From: Chloroflexota bacterium
GTDB lineage: Bacteria > Chloroflexota > Limnocylindria > Limnocylindrales > CSP1-4
NCBI GenBank assembly: GCA_030447745.1
Contig: JAUJOH010000003.1
Span: forward strand, 102,727-166,726
DNA length: 64,000 nt
Direction: 5' to 3'
Shown: in pieces, positions 1 to 51,488 of the stretch
How positions within the stretch are numbered: position 1 is the first letter of the stretch
Layout of the letters: each line of letters starts with the position of its first letter
The notes under the pieces: generated by a model
Seen by the model: the letters and a program-made list of their open reading frames with translations, nothing else
Databases searched by the model: none
Told to the model about the DNA's origin: nothing
Position numbers and translations under genes: made by a program

Positions 1-947
1 ACCGCGCCGCGGAGCGTTTCGAGCCACTCGGCCGTCGTCCGAGTCGCGAACCGGCCGCCCAGAAGCGCGACGAGCTCGTCCCGATGCTCGCGGCGCACGG
101 CGAACGACCCGAAGCGCGGATCCCGGGCCAGGTCCGGCATTCCGATCGCCGTAACCAGCGCGGTGTAGAACTTCTCCTTGGGACAAGCCACGGCGACGTA
201 GCCGTCCGCTGTCGCGAAAAACTGGAACGGGACGACGCTCGGATGGGCGGACAGCGGCGCGCGGCGGGTGGCGGAACCGGACGACAGGTACCAGGCAGCC
301 GGATAACTCAGCATCGCGAGGGCGCTGTCGTAGAGGTTCGTCTCGAGATCCCGACCGCGCCCTGTGCGCCGTGCATCGAGGACGCCGGCGACGAGGCCGA
401 GGCACGCGGTCAGTCCGGCGATGTAGTCGGCCAGCGAGAGCCCGCTCTTCGTGGGTGGCCCGTCCGGCTCGCCGGTGAGTGACGCCCAGCCGGACTCCGC
501 CTGAATGAGGGCGTCGTACCCTGGGAGGACGGCATCCGACCCGACGCTTCCGTAGCCCGTCAGCGAGACGCACACGACTCGCGGATTCACCGCCGCGAGA
601 TCGGCATAGGTGAGCCGGAGCCGAGCCGGCTGATCGCCGCGGAGGTTGCTGTAGACGGCGTCGGCCGACCCGACAAGGCGCTCGAATGCCTCGCGGCCGC
701 GCGGGTGCTTGAGGTCGAGCAGCACGCTCCGCTTGTTCCTGTTGAACGCCTCGAAGAAGAGGGAGTCCGTGCCCTCGATGCCGGGCGGGATGGCCCGGCT
801 GACGTCACCGCCGACCGCGGGGTCCTCAACCTTGATGACGTCGGCGCCGAGGTCGGCGAGATAGAGCGACCCGAACGGCCCCGCCCCGTACTGCTCGACC
901 GCGATGATGCGCAGGTCCGCGAGTGGCGCCGCGGCGGCCTCGCTCAT
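1..947 (-). CDS. CaiB/BaiF (family III) CoA-transferase, C-terminal part cut by window edge
   Basis: The frame reads from an ATG at 947 down to the window edge without a stop, so the C-terminus is missing. The N-terminus has the family III CoA-transferase signature: a start like LRIIAVEQYGAGPFGS, then LADLGADVIKVEDP, then NRNKRSVLLDLKHPRG, and later CVSLTGYGSVG. Such enzymes move CoA between organic acids in the cytoplasm. Its ATG overlaps the stop of the upstream enolase-superfamily gene (ATGA), so it is the last visible gene of an operon with a 2-oxoacid dehydrogenase E1 and a sugar-acid dehydratase. I infer that it handles a CoA thioester made in that pathway; the substrate cannot be read from sequence. 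Confidence 0.85.
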   Translation of the reverse strand, partial: MSEAAAAPLADLRIIAVEQYGAGPFGSLYLADLGADVIKVEDPAVGGDVSRAIPPGIEGTDSLFFEAFNRNKRSVLLDLKHPRGREAFERLVGSADAVYSNLRGDQPARLRLTYADLAAVNPRVVCVSLTGYGSVGSDAVLPGYDALIQAESGWASLTGEPDGPPTKSGLSLADYIAGLTACLGLVAGVLDARRTGRGRDLETNLYDSALAMLSYPAAWYLSSGSATRRAPLSAHPSVVPFQFFATADGYVAVACPKEKFYTALVTAIGMPDLARDPRFGSFAVRREHRDELVALLGGRFATRTTAEWLETLRGA

Positions 948-2122
948 CGCGCGGTGACGCGCGCGTCCGTCGTGTGCGCGCGGACGTAGTCCCAGTCCAG
1001 CTCGATACCGAACCCCGGCCGGTCCGGCAGCGTGTAGCGCCGGTTGGCGATCCGGCTCGACATGTCGGAGAGTCTCCAGAAGAAGGGATCGCGCTCCTCG
1101 TCGAAGCACTCCACGAATGTGTGTCCGACGACGCTCGCCAGAAGGTGCGCCGCCACCTGGGGCTCCTCGTGATGGCCGAGCTCCACCCCGAAGGCCGCAC
1201 ACAGCCCGGCGGCCTTGCGCCAGATCGTCGGACCGCCCGCCCAAGAGGCATCGAAGTTGCTGACGTCGAGCTCGCCGTCGACGATGAGGTCCCGGAGGCC
1301 GGGGAGCGTCATCTCGCTTTGCCCCGCGCAGACCGGGATGCCGGTCTGGTAGCGGACGTCGCGCATCCAGAGCCGGTCGTTCGTCCACCGGCAGGGCTCC
1401 TCGAACCAGCGGATGTCCTGGTCCCCGACCAATCGCCCGAACTCGACGGCGTGCGCGCGGTCGTAGCCCTGGTTCGCATCGACCATCAGCGCGAAGACGG
1501 GACCGGCGGCCTCTCGCGCAACCCGCACCCGCACGGCGTCCTCGGCCGGCGATTTGCCACCCACCTTGAACTTGCACCCGGCGAAGCCCATCTCGACGTA
1601 CCGGCGCATCAGCTCGGCGGTCTCGTCGAGGTCCAGGTGGTAGTAGCCGCCAATCACGCTGATCGGCAAGTCGTCCGTCACCGCACCCCAGACCCGGTGG
1701 AGCGGTTGGTCGAGTGCCTTGGCAAAGACGTCCCAGATGGCCGTGTCGACGGCAGCGATCGCCTGGAGCGCAAGACCGCGATCACGAAGGATGTTGTGAG
1801 TCGCGGGTTCCATCGCGGCCCACGCGCCTTCCGGATCGGTGGCGCTGCGGCCGATAATCACCGGCGCCAGCTCACGATGGATGATGTCAAGGATCACGCC
1901 CTGCTCGGCGTCGGTATCGCCGCTGTAGGTCTCCGAGATGAGGCCATCGGCGGTGTGAAGCCGGACGATGATCGTGCAGCGCTTGTCCATGGAGTAGGCG
2001 CTGCCCGAGAACCGCCGCGGGAGGGGCGCCCTGAGCGCGATCGTCTCGATCCGCTCAATCCGGAGCGAGCCACGATCAAAGCCGTGACGCACGGCTGGCC
2101 CGGCACCGGGTGCAGTGGTCAA
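944..2122 (-). CDS. Enolase-superfamily (mandelate racemase/muconate lactonizing type) acid-sugar dehydratase
   Basis: An enolase-superfamily enzyme that would abstract a proton alpha to a carboxylate, usually dehydrating a sugar acid to a 2-keto-3-deoxy acid. Visible are a lysine motif CKFKVGG, the metal ligands in MVDANQGYD and RWFEEP, and a late histidine region GHHEEPQVAAHLLA. It is clearly paralogous to the gene at 4237-5373 (shared IETI.LR.PL and RCTII.R starts). The start is uncertain: a TTG at 2122 overlaps the E1 beta stop, and a GTG lies at 2092; the longer upstream ATG at 2251 would intrude deep into E1 beta. Operon: E1 alpha, E1 beta, this gene, CoA-transferase. Confidence 0.85.
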   Translation of the reverse strand: MTTAPGAGPAVRHGFDRGSLRIERIETIALRAPLPRRFSGSAYSMDKRCTIIVRLHTADGLISETYSGDTDAEQGVILDIIHRELAPVIIGRSATDPEGAWAAMEPATHNILRDRGLALQAIAAVDTAIWDVFAKALDQPLHRVWGAVTDDLPISVIGGYYHLDLDETAELMRRYVEMGFAGCKFKVGGKSPAEDAVRVRVAREAAGPVFALMVDANQGYDRAHAVEFGRLVGDQDIRWFEEPCRWTNDRLWMRDVRYQTGIPVCAGQSEMTLPGLRDLIVDGELDVSNFDASWAGGPTIWRKAAGLCAAFGVELGHHEEPQVAAHLLASVVGHTFVECFDEERDPFFWRLSDMSSRIANRRYTLPDRPGFGIELDWDYVRAHTTDARVTAR

Positions 2123-3138
2123 CGACCGAGCGCGGTCCGCGCGGCCGCGGCGATCCGCTCGACGGACGGGATGATCTCGTTCTCGAGCGGAGGGCTGTAG
2201 GGGATCGGCAGGTCGGCCGGGAGGCTGACCGCCCGCGGTGCGGCGTGCCACGACTGCCCGGCCATGGTGAGCTCAGAGATGATCGTCGCTCCCCAGCCGC
2301 CGGCGTGGACCTGCTCCTCGGAGACCACGAGGCGGCCCGTCTTCGAGACTGACGCCGCGATCGTCGCGAGATCGAGTGGCCGGATCCAGCGCAGGTCGAT
2401 GACCTCCGTAGAGATCCCATCCGCGGCGAGCTGGTCCGCAGCCTTGAGCGCCCGTTCGACCATCAGCAGGGTGGCGACGATGGTCACGTCACTTCCCTCG
2501 CGCAGGACGGCTGCCTTGCCGAGGTCGGCAATCGCGCCCCGCCGGACGGTGCCCTTCCTCCCGTACAGGGCCTTGTGCTCGTGGAAGATCACCGGGTTGT
2601 CGTCGTGGATCGCGCTTCTCAGGAGCTCGTACGCTGCGCCCGGGCTGGAAGCCGTCACGACCCGCAGCCCCGGCAGACTCATGAACCAGCTCTCGCCGGT
2701 CGCGCTGTGCTGCGTCCCGAACCGGCCGAGCGCGCCCGAGATCGAGCGGACCGTTACCGGCACCGAGAATTGCCCGCCGCTCATGTAGCGGTACTTGGGC
2801 AGCTGATTGACGATCGCATCGCCGGCGGTCGGCAGGAAGTCGGCGAACATGATCTCGACGACCGGCCGGAGCCCGGTCAGGCTCATCCCGAGCGCGACAC
2901 CCATGAAACCGTTCTCGCAGATCGGCGTGTTCCGCACACGGCTCGGACCAAACTGTTCCACGAGGCCGTGGTTTGTCTTGAAGACCCCGCCGTCGGCGCT
3001 GACGTCCTCGCCCATCAGGACGACGGCCTCGTCGGCGGCCATCTCGTCCTCGAGGGCGGCGTTGATCGCCTCGCGGTAGGTCAGCTCGACCGTCGTCGGC
3101 TCGCTCGGGGCGGCAAGGGGCTCAGCCAGCGTAGACAT
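2119..3138 (-). CDS. 2-oxoacid dehydrogenase E1 component, beta subunit
   Basis: Beta subunit of a thiamine-diphosphate 2-oxoacid dehydrogenase (pyruvate, acetoin or branched-chain type). It starts with an ELTYREAINAALEDEM stretch and has VVLMGEDV, then TPICENGFMGVALGMSLTG, a central RSISGALGRFGTQHS, and a C-terminal transketolase domain with VIDLRWIRPLD. I chose MSTLAEP at 3138 because the longer frame would overlap E1 alpha by 80 bases; the chosen start overlaps it by 17. It should pair with the E1 alpha encoded just upstream. Which 2-oxo acid is used is unknown; the two dehydratase neighbours point to a 2-keto-3-deoxy sugar acid or its breakdown product. Confidence 0.9.
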   Translation of the reverse strand: MSTLAEPLAAPSEPTTVELTYREAINAALEDEMAADEAVVLMGEDVSADGGVFKTNHGLVEQFGPSRVRNTPICENGFMGVALGMSLTGLRPVVEIMFADFLPTAGDAIVNQLPKYRYMSGGQFSVPVTVRSISGALGRFGTQHSATGESWFMSLPGLRVVTASSPGAAYELLRSAIHDDNPVIFHEHKALYGRKGTVRRGAIADLGKAAVLREGSDVTIVATLLMVERALKAADQLAADGISTEVIDLRWIRPLDLATIAASVSKTGRLVVSEEQVHAGGWGATIISELTMAGQSWHAAPRAVSLPADLPIPYSPPLENEIIPSVERIAAAARTALGR

Positions 3139-4087
3139 AGCGCTCCGTCTCCTCGAGCGTCGGGTACGGGGACTGCACGGCACGGTCGGCGGCGGCGTCA
3201 ATCTCGGCCTGGACCTCCGCCCGCATCGCGGCCTGATCGTCCGGGGAGACTCGACCGTCGGCCGCCAGCCTGGCGCCGAGCAACTCGATCGGGTCGCGGC
3301 TCGTCCAGCGTTCGAGCTCGCCCTCCGGGCGGTACTTGGCCGGATCTGCCCGCGAGTGCCCGCGGTACCGGTACGTCTTCATCTCGAGGAGCGTCGGTCC
3401 CTCGCCGCGGCGGGCGCGCTCCACGGCATCGCTCGTCGCTCCATGGACCGCGTCAACGTCCTGGCCGTCGACGATCACACCCGGAAAGCCATAGGGACCG
3501 GCCCGCCGGGCGAGGTCGTCGAGCGGCGTCGTGCTCCGCAGGGGACTGTACTCGCCGTACAGGTTGTTGGTGATGATGAAGACGACTGGCGCCGTCCAGA
3601 CGGCGGCCATGTTGAGCGCCTCGTGGAAGGTGCCGATGTTCGTCGCTCCGTCGCCGAAGAACGAGAGCGCGACGTGCGGCTGCTGGCGGATCTGGAACGC
3701 AACCGCTGCCCCGACGGCGATCGGCAGCCCGGCGCCGACGATGGCGTTCGCGCCGATGTTGCCCTTGCTCACGTCGATAAGGTGCATCGAGCCGCCGACG
3801 CCGCCGGAACAGCCCGAGGAGCGGCCCATCAACTCGGCGAACGCCGTCTCCGGGGCCATCCCGAGCGCGAGCGCCTCCCCGTGCCCGCGATAGGTATTGG
3901 TCTGGACGTCACCCGGCCGCATCGCGCCGATCGCCCCGACGGACACCGCCTCCTGGCCCTGGCACAGGTGCGTCGTGCCCTGGATCGCACCCTGCATGAA
4001 GAGCTCCTGGACCTTCTCCTCGAAGAGCCGGATCTCCAGCATCTTGCGGAACCAGGCGACATGATCGGGCGAGAGCGGGTCGCTCAT
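3122..4087 (-). CDS. 2-oxoacid dehydrogenase E1 component, alpha subunit
   Basis: Alpha subunit of a thiamine-diphosphate 2-oxoacid dehydrogenase. The TPP motif is clear (SFFGDGATNIGTFHEALN ... TNNLYGEYSP), with an early QGTTHLCQGQEAVSVG typical of acetoin/pyruvate E1 alpha, and a phosphorylation-loop-like TYRYRGHSRADPAKYR. The start at MSDPLSP (4087) has GGAGG nine bases upstream; the longer frame starts inside the divergent promoter. First gene of the leftward operon E1 alpha - E1 beta - dehydratase - CoA-transferase. A LacI-type operator-like site lies 67 bases upstream. No E2 or E3 gene is adjacent; a split E2 is found at 46.6 kb. Confidence 0.92.
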   Translation of the reverse strand: MSDPLSPDHVAWFRKMLEIRLFEEKVQELFMQGAIQGTTHLCQGQEAVSVGAIGAMRPGDVQTNTYRGHGEALALGMAPETAFAELMGRSSGCSGGVGGSMHLIDVSKGNIGANAIVGAGLPIAVGAAVAFQIRQQPHVALSFFGDGATNIGTFHEALNMAAVWTAPVVFIITNNLYGEYSPLRSTTPLDDLARRAGPYGFPGVIVDGQDVDAVHGATSDAVERARRGEGPTLLEMKTYRYRGHSRADPAKYRPEGELERWTSRDPIELLGARLAADGRVSPDDQAAMRAEVQAEIDAAADRAVQSPYPTLEETERYVYAG

Positions 4088-4153
4088 CGGGTCAAACCTC
4101 CAACGGCAGCGGGTGCAGCCCGGGTCCGCGACGTTGGTTACGGACGCGGGGTC

Positions 4154-4167
4154 GGTACCGTTTCCAG
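4154..4167 (-). promoter_or_regulatory. LacI-type operator-like site between E1 alpha and dehydratase
   Basis: The minus strand reads CTGGAAACGGTACC, a full match to the island consensus CTGGAAACGNTNCC. The identical 14-mer is at 21659-21672. It sits between two divergent genes and could control both. The role is inferred from recurrence and position. Confidence 0.6.
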
Positions 4168-4236
4168 TTACGATTGCGCATCGTCGCATCGGGGTGTCGG
4201 CCCCGTCAAACCGTGCCGTCACGGAGGGTCGTGCCC

Positions 4237-46153: not shown

Positions 46154-46447
46154 TCAACGGCCTCCCGCGCGATCGGGATCCGAAGGGTGCGCCGCGAGCG
46201 GGTGCACCTCGACCGACAGCCACGGGAAGAGCGGGAGCGACGCGATCGCGGCATGCAGCGCGGTCGCGTCGGGTGCCTCCCAGAGGCCCCAGTTGGCGCG
46301 CTGACCGGGAATGCGCCACATCCGACGGATCGTTCCCGCCGCGGCGAGCTCGCCCGCTCGATTGCGCTCGAGGGCGGTCAGCCGGGTGAGGTCGTCCGGA
46401 TTGCCGTCGGCCGGCCAGGCGACTTCGATGTGGACCAGGTACTCCAT
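46154..46447 (-). CDS. Muconolactone isomerase-like protein
   Basis: A 97-residue protein with the muconolactone delta-isomerase layout: MEYLVHIEVAWPADGNPDDL, then LERNRAGELAAAGTIRRMWRIPGQRANWGLWE, then SLPLFPWLSVEVHPLAAHP. CatC moves the double bond in muconolactone, but small relatives of this fold occur in other catabolic clusters. No other aromatic-pathway gene is present, so a different lactone or none is more likely. It is divergent from the split E2 operon across an operator-like site. Confidence 0.82.
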   Translation of the reverse strand: MEYLVHIEVAWPADGNPDDLTRLTALERNRAGELAAAGTIRRMWRIPGQRANWGLWEAPDATALHAAIASLPLFPWLSVEVHPLAAHPSDPDRAGGR

Positions 46448-46600: not shown

Positions 46601-46846
46601 ATGGCTCGGATCCCGATCGAGATGCCGAAGCTCGGCTACGACATGGAGTCCGGACGTGTGGCGGGGTGGATCAAGAAGGTCGGCGACGGCGTCGCACGGG
46701 GCGACGTGATCGCCGAGATCGAGACGGAGAAGAGCACCGTCGAGATGGAATCCACGGCGTCGGGGACGCTCGTCGAGATCGTCGCCGACGCAGGCGCCGA
46801 GCTGCCGGTCGGCGAGGTCATCGGCTACCTCGACGACGGCGCCTGA
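46601..46846 (+). CDS. Free-standing lipoyl-domain protein (E2 lipoyl carrier)
   Basis: An 81-residue protein that is just one biotinyl/lipoyl domain: IPIEMPKLGYDMESGRVAGW at the start, the lipoylation hairpin AEIETEKSTVEMES with the target lysine (about residue 45), and VGEVIGYLDDGA at the end. In ordinary E2 proteins this is followed by a linker, a subunit-binding domain and the catalytic domain. Here a stop is followed 13 bases later by the start of a separate catalytic-domain gene. AGGAGG precedes the ATG. It should carry the acyl group formed by the E1 encoded at 2.1-4.1 kb. Confidence 0.92.
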   Translation: MARIPIEMPKLGYDMESGRVAGWIKKVGDGVARGDVIAEIETEKSTVEMESTASGTLVEIVADAGAELPVGEVIGYLDDGA

Positions 46847-46859
46847 CCGCGGCTCGGAC

Positions 46860-47606
46860 ATGGCGGAGGTGAGCGGACGCCACCCGGTCCGGGTCAGCCC
46901 GATGCGCGCCGCGATCGCGCGCCGGATGGTCCAGAGCAAGCAGCAGGCACCCCACTTCTACGTCTCGACGTCGATCGAGATGGACGCCCTCCTCGCCCGG
47001 AGCCGGACAGACAACGACGGTCGCCCCGCCGAGCGGCGGGTCACGCTCACCGCCTACCTGGTCCGGGCCCTGGCCCTCACGCTCACGGAGCACCAGGCCT
47101 TCAACGCCGTCTGGGAGGGCGAGACGCTCGTGCGCGTGGACTCGATCAACATCGGCGTCGCGATCGCCCTCGACGACGGCCTCATCGCACCTGCACTCCT
47201 CGCCTGCGGGGACCGAGTGGTCGACGACCCCGCCGTCGGCCTGGCCGACCTCGTGGCCCGCACGCGGGCCGGGAAGCTGCGCGCTCCCGAGATGAGCGAC
47301 GCGACCTTCACCATCAGCAACCTCGGGATGTTCGATGTGTCGGCGTTCACGGCAATCGTCACCCCGCCCCAGGTCGCGATCCTCGCCACCGCGCGCACGG
47401 AACCGCGGGCGGTCGTGCACGATAACCAGATCGTCGTCCGGCAGGTGCTCACCGCCACGCTGTCGTCCGACCATCGCGCCGTCGACGGTGTGGGAGCGGC
47501 ACGGTTCCTGGAGACCTTCAAGGGGTTCGTGGAGGCAGCCGAGACATGGCCTGCCGCGGAGACGGCGCCGGCACCGGGGCCGGCTGAACCCCGAGGTGGA
47601 CGGTGA
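46860..47606 (+). CDS. E2-type acyltransferase catalytic domain, lacking lipoyl and subunit-binding domains
   Basis: 248 residues that correspond only to the catalytic domain of dihydrolipoamide acyltransferase. It starts VRVSPMRAAIARRMVQSKQQAPHFY and has FTISNLGMFDVSAFTAIVTPP and the catalytic LSSDHRAVDGVGAARFLETF with His and Asp. No E1/E3-binding domain is visible before it. With the free lipoyl protein encoded upstream it forms a split E2 that should move an acyl group to CoA. Its stop overlaps the GTG of the next gene (GTGA). A sequencing indel is unlikely to explain the split, since both ends are clean. Confidence 0.9.
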   Translation: MAEVSGRHPVRVSPMRAAIARRMVQSKQQAPHFYVSTSIEMDALLARSRTDNDGRPAERRVTLTAYLVRALALTLTEHQAFNAVWEGETLVRVDSINIGVAIALDDGLIAPALLACGDRVVDDPAVGLADLVARTRAGKLRAPEMSDATFTISNLGMFDVSAFTAIVTPPQVAILATARTEPRAVVHDNQIVVRQVLTATLSSDHRAVDGVGAARFLETFKGFVEAAETWPAAETAPAPGPAEPRGGR

Positions 47607-49434: not shown

Positions 49435-50737
49435 TGCCGTCGAGACCCGCTTCCGATCTGACCGCGGCGATCGCCGACGGTGACGCGCACCGCCGTGCTG
49501 CCAGGGCCGATCTCGCCCGCCGGCGTGCCATCCTGCCGCTTCACTACTGGCGGCAGCAGGCGCACCTCACGACCCCCGCTGGGGACGCCCGCGATGGCGC
49601 GCAAGGCCGTCGAAGGCGGCACGGCGGGTTGGTCGAATGCTCGAGCGGCTCGGCCTGACGGCCACCGATCTCGCCGAGCGCCTCGAGCTTCCCTCGCCGC
49701 GCGTCGAGGAGCGGCTGGCCGAGCCAGCGCGCGCGCCCATCGTCATGCTCGACGGCGAGGACGCGATGGCGCCGGGCGAGGCCGCCGCCACGCGCGGCCT
49801 CGCGGTGGCCGCCGACACCTTCGCCGGGGCCGACTGGGGCTCGGGACGTCTCGGAGCCTTCGCTTCTACCGGCCACCCGGGGCTAAACCTGGACACGACC
49901 GTCCACGACCTGTACACCCTGTTGTGGGACCTGCGCGGCCGTTGCGGCGACGACCCCGCAGCCTTCCCCCTCGATGGGATCGTGTTCCCGAAGATCGAGC
50001 ATCCCGAGGAGGTCGACTTCGTCAACGGGCTGCTCCACCGGGCGGAGACCGCGTTGGGACTGCCGAACGGCCGGATACGCGTCGCCTACCTCGTGGAGTC
50101 CGGTTGGGCCGCCTCCCAGCTCGCCGAGATCGTCCGGCGGGCGGCGGCGCCTCGCGTCGCTCATCTTCGGGCTCGCCGACTACAGCGCCGATCTCGGGCT
50201 GCCGACAATCGGCAACGACCATCCGCTGGCCAACTGGGCACGTTCCGAGATCGTGGCGGTCGCGGGCGCGGTGGGCGTGCCGGCCGTCGACGGGATGACG
50301 CTCGAGTACCCGGTGGCCGACCCCGCGCTTGACGCGACGACCAACCGGGTCCGCTGGTTGGACCGGATGCGACTCGTGTACGACGACGCGGTCGGAGCGC
50401 GCGAGCTGGGGATGGTCGGCAAGTGGGTCGGCCATCCCGCGCAGCTGTTCGCCGTGCTGCTGGCGTGCGACGCCCGATTCACGGACGAGTCCCTCCAGGC
50501 CGGGCGGCGAAGCTCGAAGCGTACGGTGAGGCGGTGCGGGCGGAACGCGGCGCGACGATGATCGGCGGCGTGATGAGCGACCGCGCGACGGACCGGCATG
50601 CGCGCGTCCTGCTCCGGCAGGCCACGGCGCTTGGACGGTTCGACCCCAGACGCGCCCTCGCGCTCGGCGTTGTCGATGCCGCCGAGCTCGTCGAAGCCGG
50701 ACTCGTCCCGGAAGCCGAAGGAGGACCGACCACCTGA
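49435..50737 (+). pseudogene. HpcH/HpaI aldolase / citrate lyase beta (CitE)-like protein, frameshifted
   Basis: The ATG at 49435 (GGAG upstream) starts SDLTAAIADGDAHRRAAR and LPLHYWRQQAHLTTP. After a shift near 49610 it reads PSPRVEERLAEP, IVMLDGEDAMAPGEAA and VDGIVFPKIEHPEEVDF (here LDGIVFPK). After a shift near 50150 it reads LIFGLADYSADLGLP, VAGAVGVPAVDGMTLEYP and MVGKWVGHPAQLFAVLLA. After a shift near 50510 it reads ERGATMIGGVMSDRATDRHAR. The IVMLDGED and PKIEH motifs carry the metal-binding acidic residues of CitE/malyl-CoA lyases. It would cleave or form a carbon-carbon bond in an acyl-CoA. It is coupled to the hydratase-like gene after it. Confidence 0.78.
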
Positions 50738-51216
50738 TGAGCGCTCGGTCGTCGGCTGGAGGGCCGCTTCCTCGAGGACTTCACCGTCGGGGACGTCTAT
50801 CGCCACGCGCACGGGCGGACGATCACCGAGACGGACAACACGTGGTTCACGCTGTTGACGAACAACTCCCATGACATCCACTACAACGCCGACTACGCGT
50901 CGCGGACGGAGTTCGGCAAGCCGCTGGTCGTTTCGACGTTGACCCTCGCCATCGTCACCGGGCTGTCCGTGCCGGACGTGAGCCAGAACGCGGTCGCGAA
51001 CCTCGGCTGGGACGACGTGAAGCTGCTGACACCGGTCTTCGCCGGTGACACGCTGTACGCGGAATCGAGGTCCTGGAAGTACGCCCGTCGCGGTCGCGCG
51101 CCGGGCAGGGCATCGTTCGGGTCCGAACCCGCGGCTTCAACCAGCGATCGGAGACGGTCATCACCTATGAGCGGACCGTACTCGTCTACGGGCGCAGCGC
51201 GCGTCCACGATCGTGA
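50737..51216 (+). pseudogene. MaoC-family, mesaconyl-CoA-hydratase-like protein, frameshifted
   Basis: The ATG overlaps the previous stop (ATGA). After an early shift (near 50760) it reads FLEDFTVGDVYRHAHGRT, TNNSHDIHYNADYASRTEFG (hot-dog hydratase motif with Asp and His), VSTLTLAIVTGLSVPDVS and VANLGWDDVKLLTPVFAGDTLYAES. After a second shift (near 51067) it reads GQGIVRVRTRGFNQRSE to a stop at 51216. About 158 residues. It should hydrate or dehydrate an enoyl-CoA and forms a natural pair with the CitE-like lyase, as in mesaconyl-CoA or methylaspartate-type routes. Confidence 0.75.
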
Positions 51217-51229
51217 TGGAGGAGTCTAC

Positions 51230-51488
51230 CGCGCGAGGCGCCGACCAAGGACCCCCACGTTATTCGGCGCTCGGGGCAGAAGGGTTCGGCGGCGAGGTCC
51301 ACGCTCGACTGCGCGGCCAGGTCGCCTTCATCCCGGGCGACGAAGCTGTACACGAACGCGGTAACGGCGAGCGCGACACCCGGCCGCGGCGCCGTCCGTC
51401 CCGCGGGGCTCCACTCAGAACGATATCTAGGTCGAAGACGCCGCTCGATGGGCGCTTCGATGTCGGTCGTGAGGGTGATGACCGTCAT
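51230..51488 (-). pseudogene. SRPBCC/START-like domain remnant
   Basis: The start MTVITLTTDIEAPIER is typical of SRPBCC ligand-binding proteins. It then falls out of frame (FDLDI, then PGDE-like segments in other frames), with no intact remainder. It would have been coupled to the epimerase-like gene upstream on the minus strand, a common pairing. Confidence 0.4.

Follow-up and report, generated by a model that had tools for sequence, protein, structure and literature searches.

A conserved split E2 of the 2-oxoacid dehydrogenase family with a free-standing lipoyl protein in Chloroflexota

The window analysed here, the whole stretch of 64,000 nucleotides taken from a Chloroflexota MAG of 2.43 Mb and 77% completeness, encodes a 2-oxoacid dehydrogenase E2 divided between two genes, one for a free lipoyl protein and the other for the catalytic domain (Table 1). 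We consider it rather probable that this conserved split E2 uses its lipoyl protein as a free carrier that would serve E1, an E2 that is probably a trimer, and a shared E3, following a logic like that of GcvH.

Table 1. Features of the window related to the split E2, with positions counted from its first nucleotide.
Feature	Position	Strand	Evidence or remark
Acid-sugar dehydratase of the enolase superfamily (MR_MLE), part of the E1 operon	944..2251	-	Pfam MR_MLE_C, 170 bits
E1 beta	2119..3201 (ORF extent)	-	Pfam Transket_pyr and Transketolase_C
E1 alpha	3122..4222 (ORF extent; translation probably begins at an internal ATG, position 4087)	-	Pfam E1_dh, 261 bits
Muconolactone-isomerase-family protein	46154..46447	-	Divergent, upstream of the lipoyl gene
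Lipoyl carrier protein, free-standing	46601..46846	+	81 aa; lipoylation motif ETEKS (Lys44)
Intercistronic gap	46847..46859	+	13 bases, from the lipoyl stop to the E2 ATG
E2 acyltransferase catalytic domain, own protein	46860..47606	+	248 aa
HpcH/HpaI-type (CitE-like) lyase	49637..50561	+	Pfam HpcH_HpaI and MS_TIM-barrel; frame broken in this assembly
MaoC-type (mesaconyl-CoA hydratase-like) hydratase	50855..51364	+	Pfam MaoC_dehydratas, 43 bits, residues 8-71; only the N-terminal part in frame

In the protein of the first gene, the Pfam domain Biotin_lipoyl (64.8 bits, residues 6-76) covered the whole length, and in that of the second, 2-oxoacid_dh (224.6 bits, residues 10-229) was the only match, with no lipoyl domain detected by Pfam on this E2 protein and no subunit-binding domain (PSBD; E3_binding, PF02817) on either of the two. 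Both open reading frames and their domains thus agree with the sequence-only reading, which had described a small lipoyl protein and a separate catalytic protein devoid of PSBD, and the clean stop followed at such a short distance by the catalytic gene was confirmed as well. The E2 protein carries only about 10 residues N-terminal of its core, and the lipoyl protein is a bare domain with no long extension. Lys44 of the ETEKS motif was invariant among 19 homologues, as were D204, H205, R206, D209 and G210 of the E2, where the DHRxxDG motif is intact. By homology and motifs the pair is therefore read as an E2, as it offers what would be expected of a functional 2-oxoacid dehydrogenase E2, namely a CAT-fold catalytic domain with DHRxxDG and a lipoyl domain with the lysine for lipoylation, here encoded by the adjacent gene, yet it departs from the architecture that defines a canonical multidomain E2, since its two domains lie on separate chains and the PSBD is absent.

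Of 151 related genomes, about 25 encoded a catalytic protein closely related to that of the window (55-71% identity), most of the genomes compared being incomplete MAGs, while other E2s reached at most about 43%. Every close homologue was split, as the sequence-only reading had proposed to check, and neither an intact single E2 at this locus in the relatives nor an indel, either of which would have spoken against it, was seen. The 28 loci read, counting that of the window, all had a stop between the lipoyl and catalytic domains, at an offset to the core that varied from locus to locus, with all three frames represented, and no remnant of a linker or of a PSBD was found between the domains. The two genes were adjacent, in the same direction and strictly paired in every locus read. 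The pattern was repeated in a scan of the GTDB genome collection, all matches of at least 55% identity being split and those below 50% fused, except for L266 (split, 43%); the organisms recovered included Ca. Limnocylindrus, Ca. Aquidulcis, other Chloroflexota, one Lysobacterales MAG and two Acidimicrobiia MAGs. Close pairs from Limnocylindrus showed dN values of about 0.01-0.07 versus dS values of about 0.4-0.7, so both genes are under purifying selection there. At six loci (L045, L046, L057, L062, L064 and L065) the GTG start of the E2 directly follows the lipoyl stop (TAA/TAG), in frame, and at L047 (9374-9560) the split E2 of genome G102 stops early, about 61 codons in, probably through an assembly frameshift.

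Among 91 catalytic domains placed in a tree, the 23 split E2s occupied one side of a single branch (SH-aLRT 98), so that the split corresponds to one change on this tree. The clade was nested among fused, PSBD-bearing E2s, beside fused E2s of Chloroflexota and Armatimonadota. A single origin of the split by loss of linker and PSBD would be the simplest reading.

The sequence-only reading had pointed out that the E1 genes lie 42 kb from the pair, and their relation to it can now be traced through other genomes. In two relatives (G031 and G005; loci L054 and L055), orthologues of the window E1 alpha and E1 beta adjoin the split pair, in divergent orientation, and that of the enolase-family dehydratase follows E1 beta. 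The contig of L266 presents, in this order, a CoA-transferase, a MaoC hydratase, the lipoyl protein, E2, E1 alpha and E1 beta, its E1s being around 61% identical to those of the window. Moreover, counting E1 alpha at 75% identity or more (the next best reached 56%) in the 91 genomes that make up the family group, the split E2 was present in nine of nine genomes carrying the window-type E1 alpha (p = 1.3e-11, a value to be read knowing that the genomes, from eight genera, are not fully independent), and only one further family genome had a split E2 at 60% identity or more without this E1 alpha. The adjacency of the orthologues and this co-occurrence assign the window E1 alpha/beta, on comparative grounds, to the split-E2 system. 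Other arrangements were observed too. In three MAGs of Lysobacterales and Acidimicrobiia, a run of consecutive genes encodes two E1 alpha/beta pairs together with a single lipoyl protein and a single split E2 (L226:5735-10687, L229:1781-6833 and L227:1-3757), located behind hydantoinase A/B genes in L226 and beginning inside the first E1 beta in L227, and no E3 was found in these three stretches. In L071 (9628-15356), an operon-like series comprises E1 alpha, E1 beta and a lipoyl protein, after which come a second E1 alpha-beta frame, apparently fused (737 aa), another free lipoyl protein and the split E2.

The genes around the pair encode enolase-family dehydratases, an SDR, an amidohydrolase, a rhamnose mutarotase and sugar ABC transporters, with genes for CitE-like and MaoC enzymes following the pair, a neighbourhood that points to sugar-acid catabolism. 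Intact copies of the CitE-like gene follow the pair in relatives (for example L060, L061 and L066), and relatives of the MaoC hydratase are found near it in L066 and L266. Homologues of the muconolactone-isomerase-family protein flank the pair in L056, L058 and L059.

With respect to E3, the statement that none is present in the window holds, and no E3 gene was found beside the split pair in any of the loci read, but the genome itself does possess one on the same contig, about 95 kb from the pair, within an ordinary E1-E2-E3 operon. The E2 of this conventional operon has lipoyl, PSBD and catalytic domains, and its PSBD was the only one detected in the window genome. An AceE-type E1 is also present. 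Such E1s were found in 137 of the 151 related genomes, alongside alpha/beta E1s and conventional E2s, and one lies at G000:C26:230135-230764; being so widespread, AceE says nothing about whether a genome has the split E2.

This coexistence opens the best surviving alternative, in which the lipoyl protein would not be reserved for its own E2 but shared, working also or mainly with the conventional E1/E2/E3 complex or with the genome's AceE-type E1. The complete conventional operon and the AceE-type E1 of the window genome speak for it, as do the MAGs of L226 and L229, with their two E1 alpha/beta pairs for one lipoyl protein and one E2. Nevertheless, the conventional E2 bears a lipoyl domain of its own, and lipoyl gene and split E2 gene are strictly paired at every locus, so we regard such sharing as unlikely, although worth keeping in mind.

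Among the genomes with the pair there are 15 of Ca. Limnocylindrus, streamlined to 0.8-1.2 Mb, whose assemblies are incomplete but whose absences repeat across many of them. In all 15 the split pair was the single E2 match, and no PSBD was detected in any, which, together with its restriction to the conventional E2 in the window genome, led us to reject a PSBD hidden elsewhere. E1_dh gave no match above the cut-off in any of the 15, and the searches with E1_dh and Transket_pyr first pointed to a missing E1, an idea abandoned when an AceE-type E1 was found, in 16 of 19 genomes of the Limnocylindrus group. E3 was present in 14 of the 15, adjoining lipoyl synthase in the regions read. Further Biotin_lipoyl matches were considered as a second lipoyl protein and discarded, since they resemble biotin carriers (EAMK in those read). 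With the AceE type as the only E1 found in Ca. Limnocylindrus, pyruvate oxidation is by elimination the expected role of the pair, which probably acts there as the E2 of a pyruvate dehydrogenase with AceE; the case for this pairing is weakened by its reliance on the lack of alternatives and by the general frequency of AceE in the class.

The AlphaFold model of the window E2 had a pLDDT of 80.6, and its listed PDB matches were chains of E2 or E3BP. Hydrophobic residues among the last six averaged 1.1 in the split E2s of the tree versus 3.8 in the fused ones, and the C-terminal segment is involved in trimer-trimer contacts in E2 cores (PMC10415282). The missing hydrophobic tail suggests that split E2s may be free trimers and would not assemble into a core of 24 or 60 subunits; it is supportive and no proof of this, because the conventional PSBD-bearing E2s of the class have varied tails (for example TPIY) and the split rows of the tree are one clade.

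A stable complex of the four components, held by new contacts other than a PSBD, for instance with E1 or E3 attached directly to the E2 trimer or to the lipoyl protein, would deprive the carrier of its free diffusion. The attachment of E1 or E3 to these two proteins might involve a surface not recognised as such, or a small unrecognised binding protein, and the constant adjacency and common direction of the two genes would fit such an assembly, as does the precedent of OdhA, in which E1 and E2 domains assemble by other means (PMC10415282). Against this, neither protein has an extra domain or a long extension and E3 is never encoded with the pair, so that we hold this complex for a little less probable than the shared lipoyl protein.

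Explanations that would undo the split itself fare far worse. Readthrough of the stop codon, yielding a fused lipoyl-catalytic protein, could be imagined in those Limnocylindrus genomes where TAA or TAG is immediately followed by an in-frame GTG, but most loci, window included, hold the two genes in different frames, where readthrough cannot join them, and it was rejected as highly improbable. Still more remote is the division of a normal E2 by an assembly or sequencing error or by decay into a pseudogene, since, even if the CitE-like and MaoC genes of the same window are frame-broken, 28 loci are split with differing spacers and in three frames, dN/dS is low on both parts, no linker or PSBD remnant is left and the split E2s form a single clade.

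The diffusible carrier, already suggested from the window alone by comparison with GcvH, is consequently the mechanism that we find best supported, as the pair has no PSBD that could tether E1 or E3, and none was detected in the 15 Limnocylindrus genomes in which the pair was the only E2 found. According to it, the lipoyl protein would be lipoylated on Lys44 and reductively acylated by E1, and the acylated carrier would diffuse, as the H protein of glycine cleavage does, to the E2 acyltransferase, a separate protein and probably a free trimer, where acyl-CoA would be formed; the reduced carrier would then be reoxidised by the shared E3 of the cell. It is known that an isolated lipoyl domain is a substrate of E1 (PMC6270654) and that OdhA of actinobacteria works with lipoyl groups supplied in trans (PMC10415282). 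In the family of the window, E1 is the alpha/beta pair at 2.1-4.2 kb, and its location in a sugar-acid catabolic region makes a pathway-specific 2-oxo acid the probable substrate, possibly produced by the MR_MLE dehydratase of the E1 operon. More speculatively, E1 might act on a 2-keto-3-deoxy acid and lead to a 3-hydroxyacyl-CoA that the MaoC and CitE-like enzymes would use. For the wider proposal, a complete 2-oxoacid dehydrogenase (the sole pyruvate dehydrogenase in Ca. Limnocylindrus) that would operate without multienzyme assembly, that is, with neither PSBD nor E2 core and with a single-domain carrier diffusing among E1 (alpha/beta or AceE), trimeric E2 and shared E3, we see the case as evenly balanced.

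Among known systems, the E2s of the PDH/BCKDH type (TIGR01349 and related) share with the pair the lipoyl and catalytic families and the DHRxxDG and lipoylation motifs, and the pair is nested inside them in the tree; unlike them, it is encoded by two genes and has lost the linker, the PSBD and the usual hydrophobic C-terminus. GcvH is a small free lipoyl protein that moves between separate enzymes and E3. The lipoyl protein of the window is also small and free, with the same working logic proposed for it, but it is an E2-type lipoyl domain, GcvH chains giving 26-27 bits and E2 chains up to 114. Acetoin dehydrogenase (AcoABCL) resembles the system in having catabolic E1 alpha/beta genes with a lipoyl component of their own, and its E2 (PRK14875) was the best NCBIfam match of the lipoyl domain (83.5 bits, on the lipoyl part only, far below the cut-off of 307); there, however, the lipoyl domain is part of a longer chain (372 model positions). 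Finally, actinobacterial OdhA/KGD with AceF (PMC10415282) has an E2 catalytic domain that needs lipoyl in trans and a non-standard E2 core, both of which are proposed for the pair too, but its donor is the multidomain AceF and its E1 is fused to E2, whereas the donor in the window would be a single domain and none of the components is part of a fusion. No papers on a split E2 or on the pyruvate dehydrogenase of Limnocylindria were found in the open-access literature, to which the search was confined, subscription papers lying outside it.

Lipoyl arms on a tether and subunit-binding domains count as hallmarks of 2-oxoacid dehydrogenase complexes, and what these enzymes gain by assembling is a question that still stands. 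With a natural lineage that lacks both, found in freshwater and having streamlined genomes, it can be tested directly whether E1, E2 and E3 can run efficiently on a free carrier, and at what cost.
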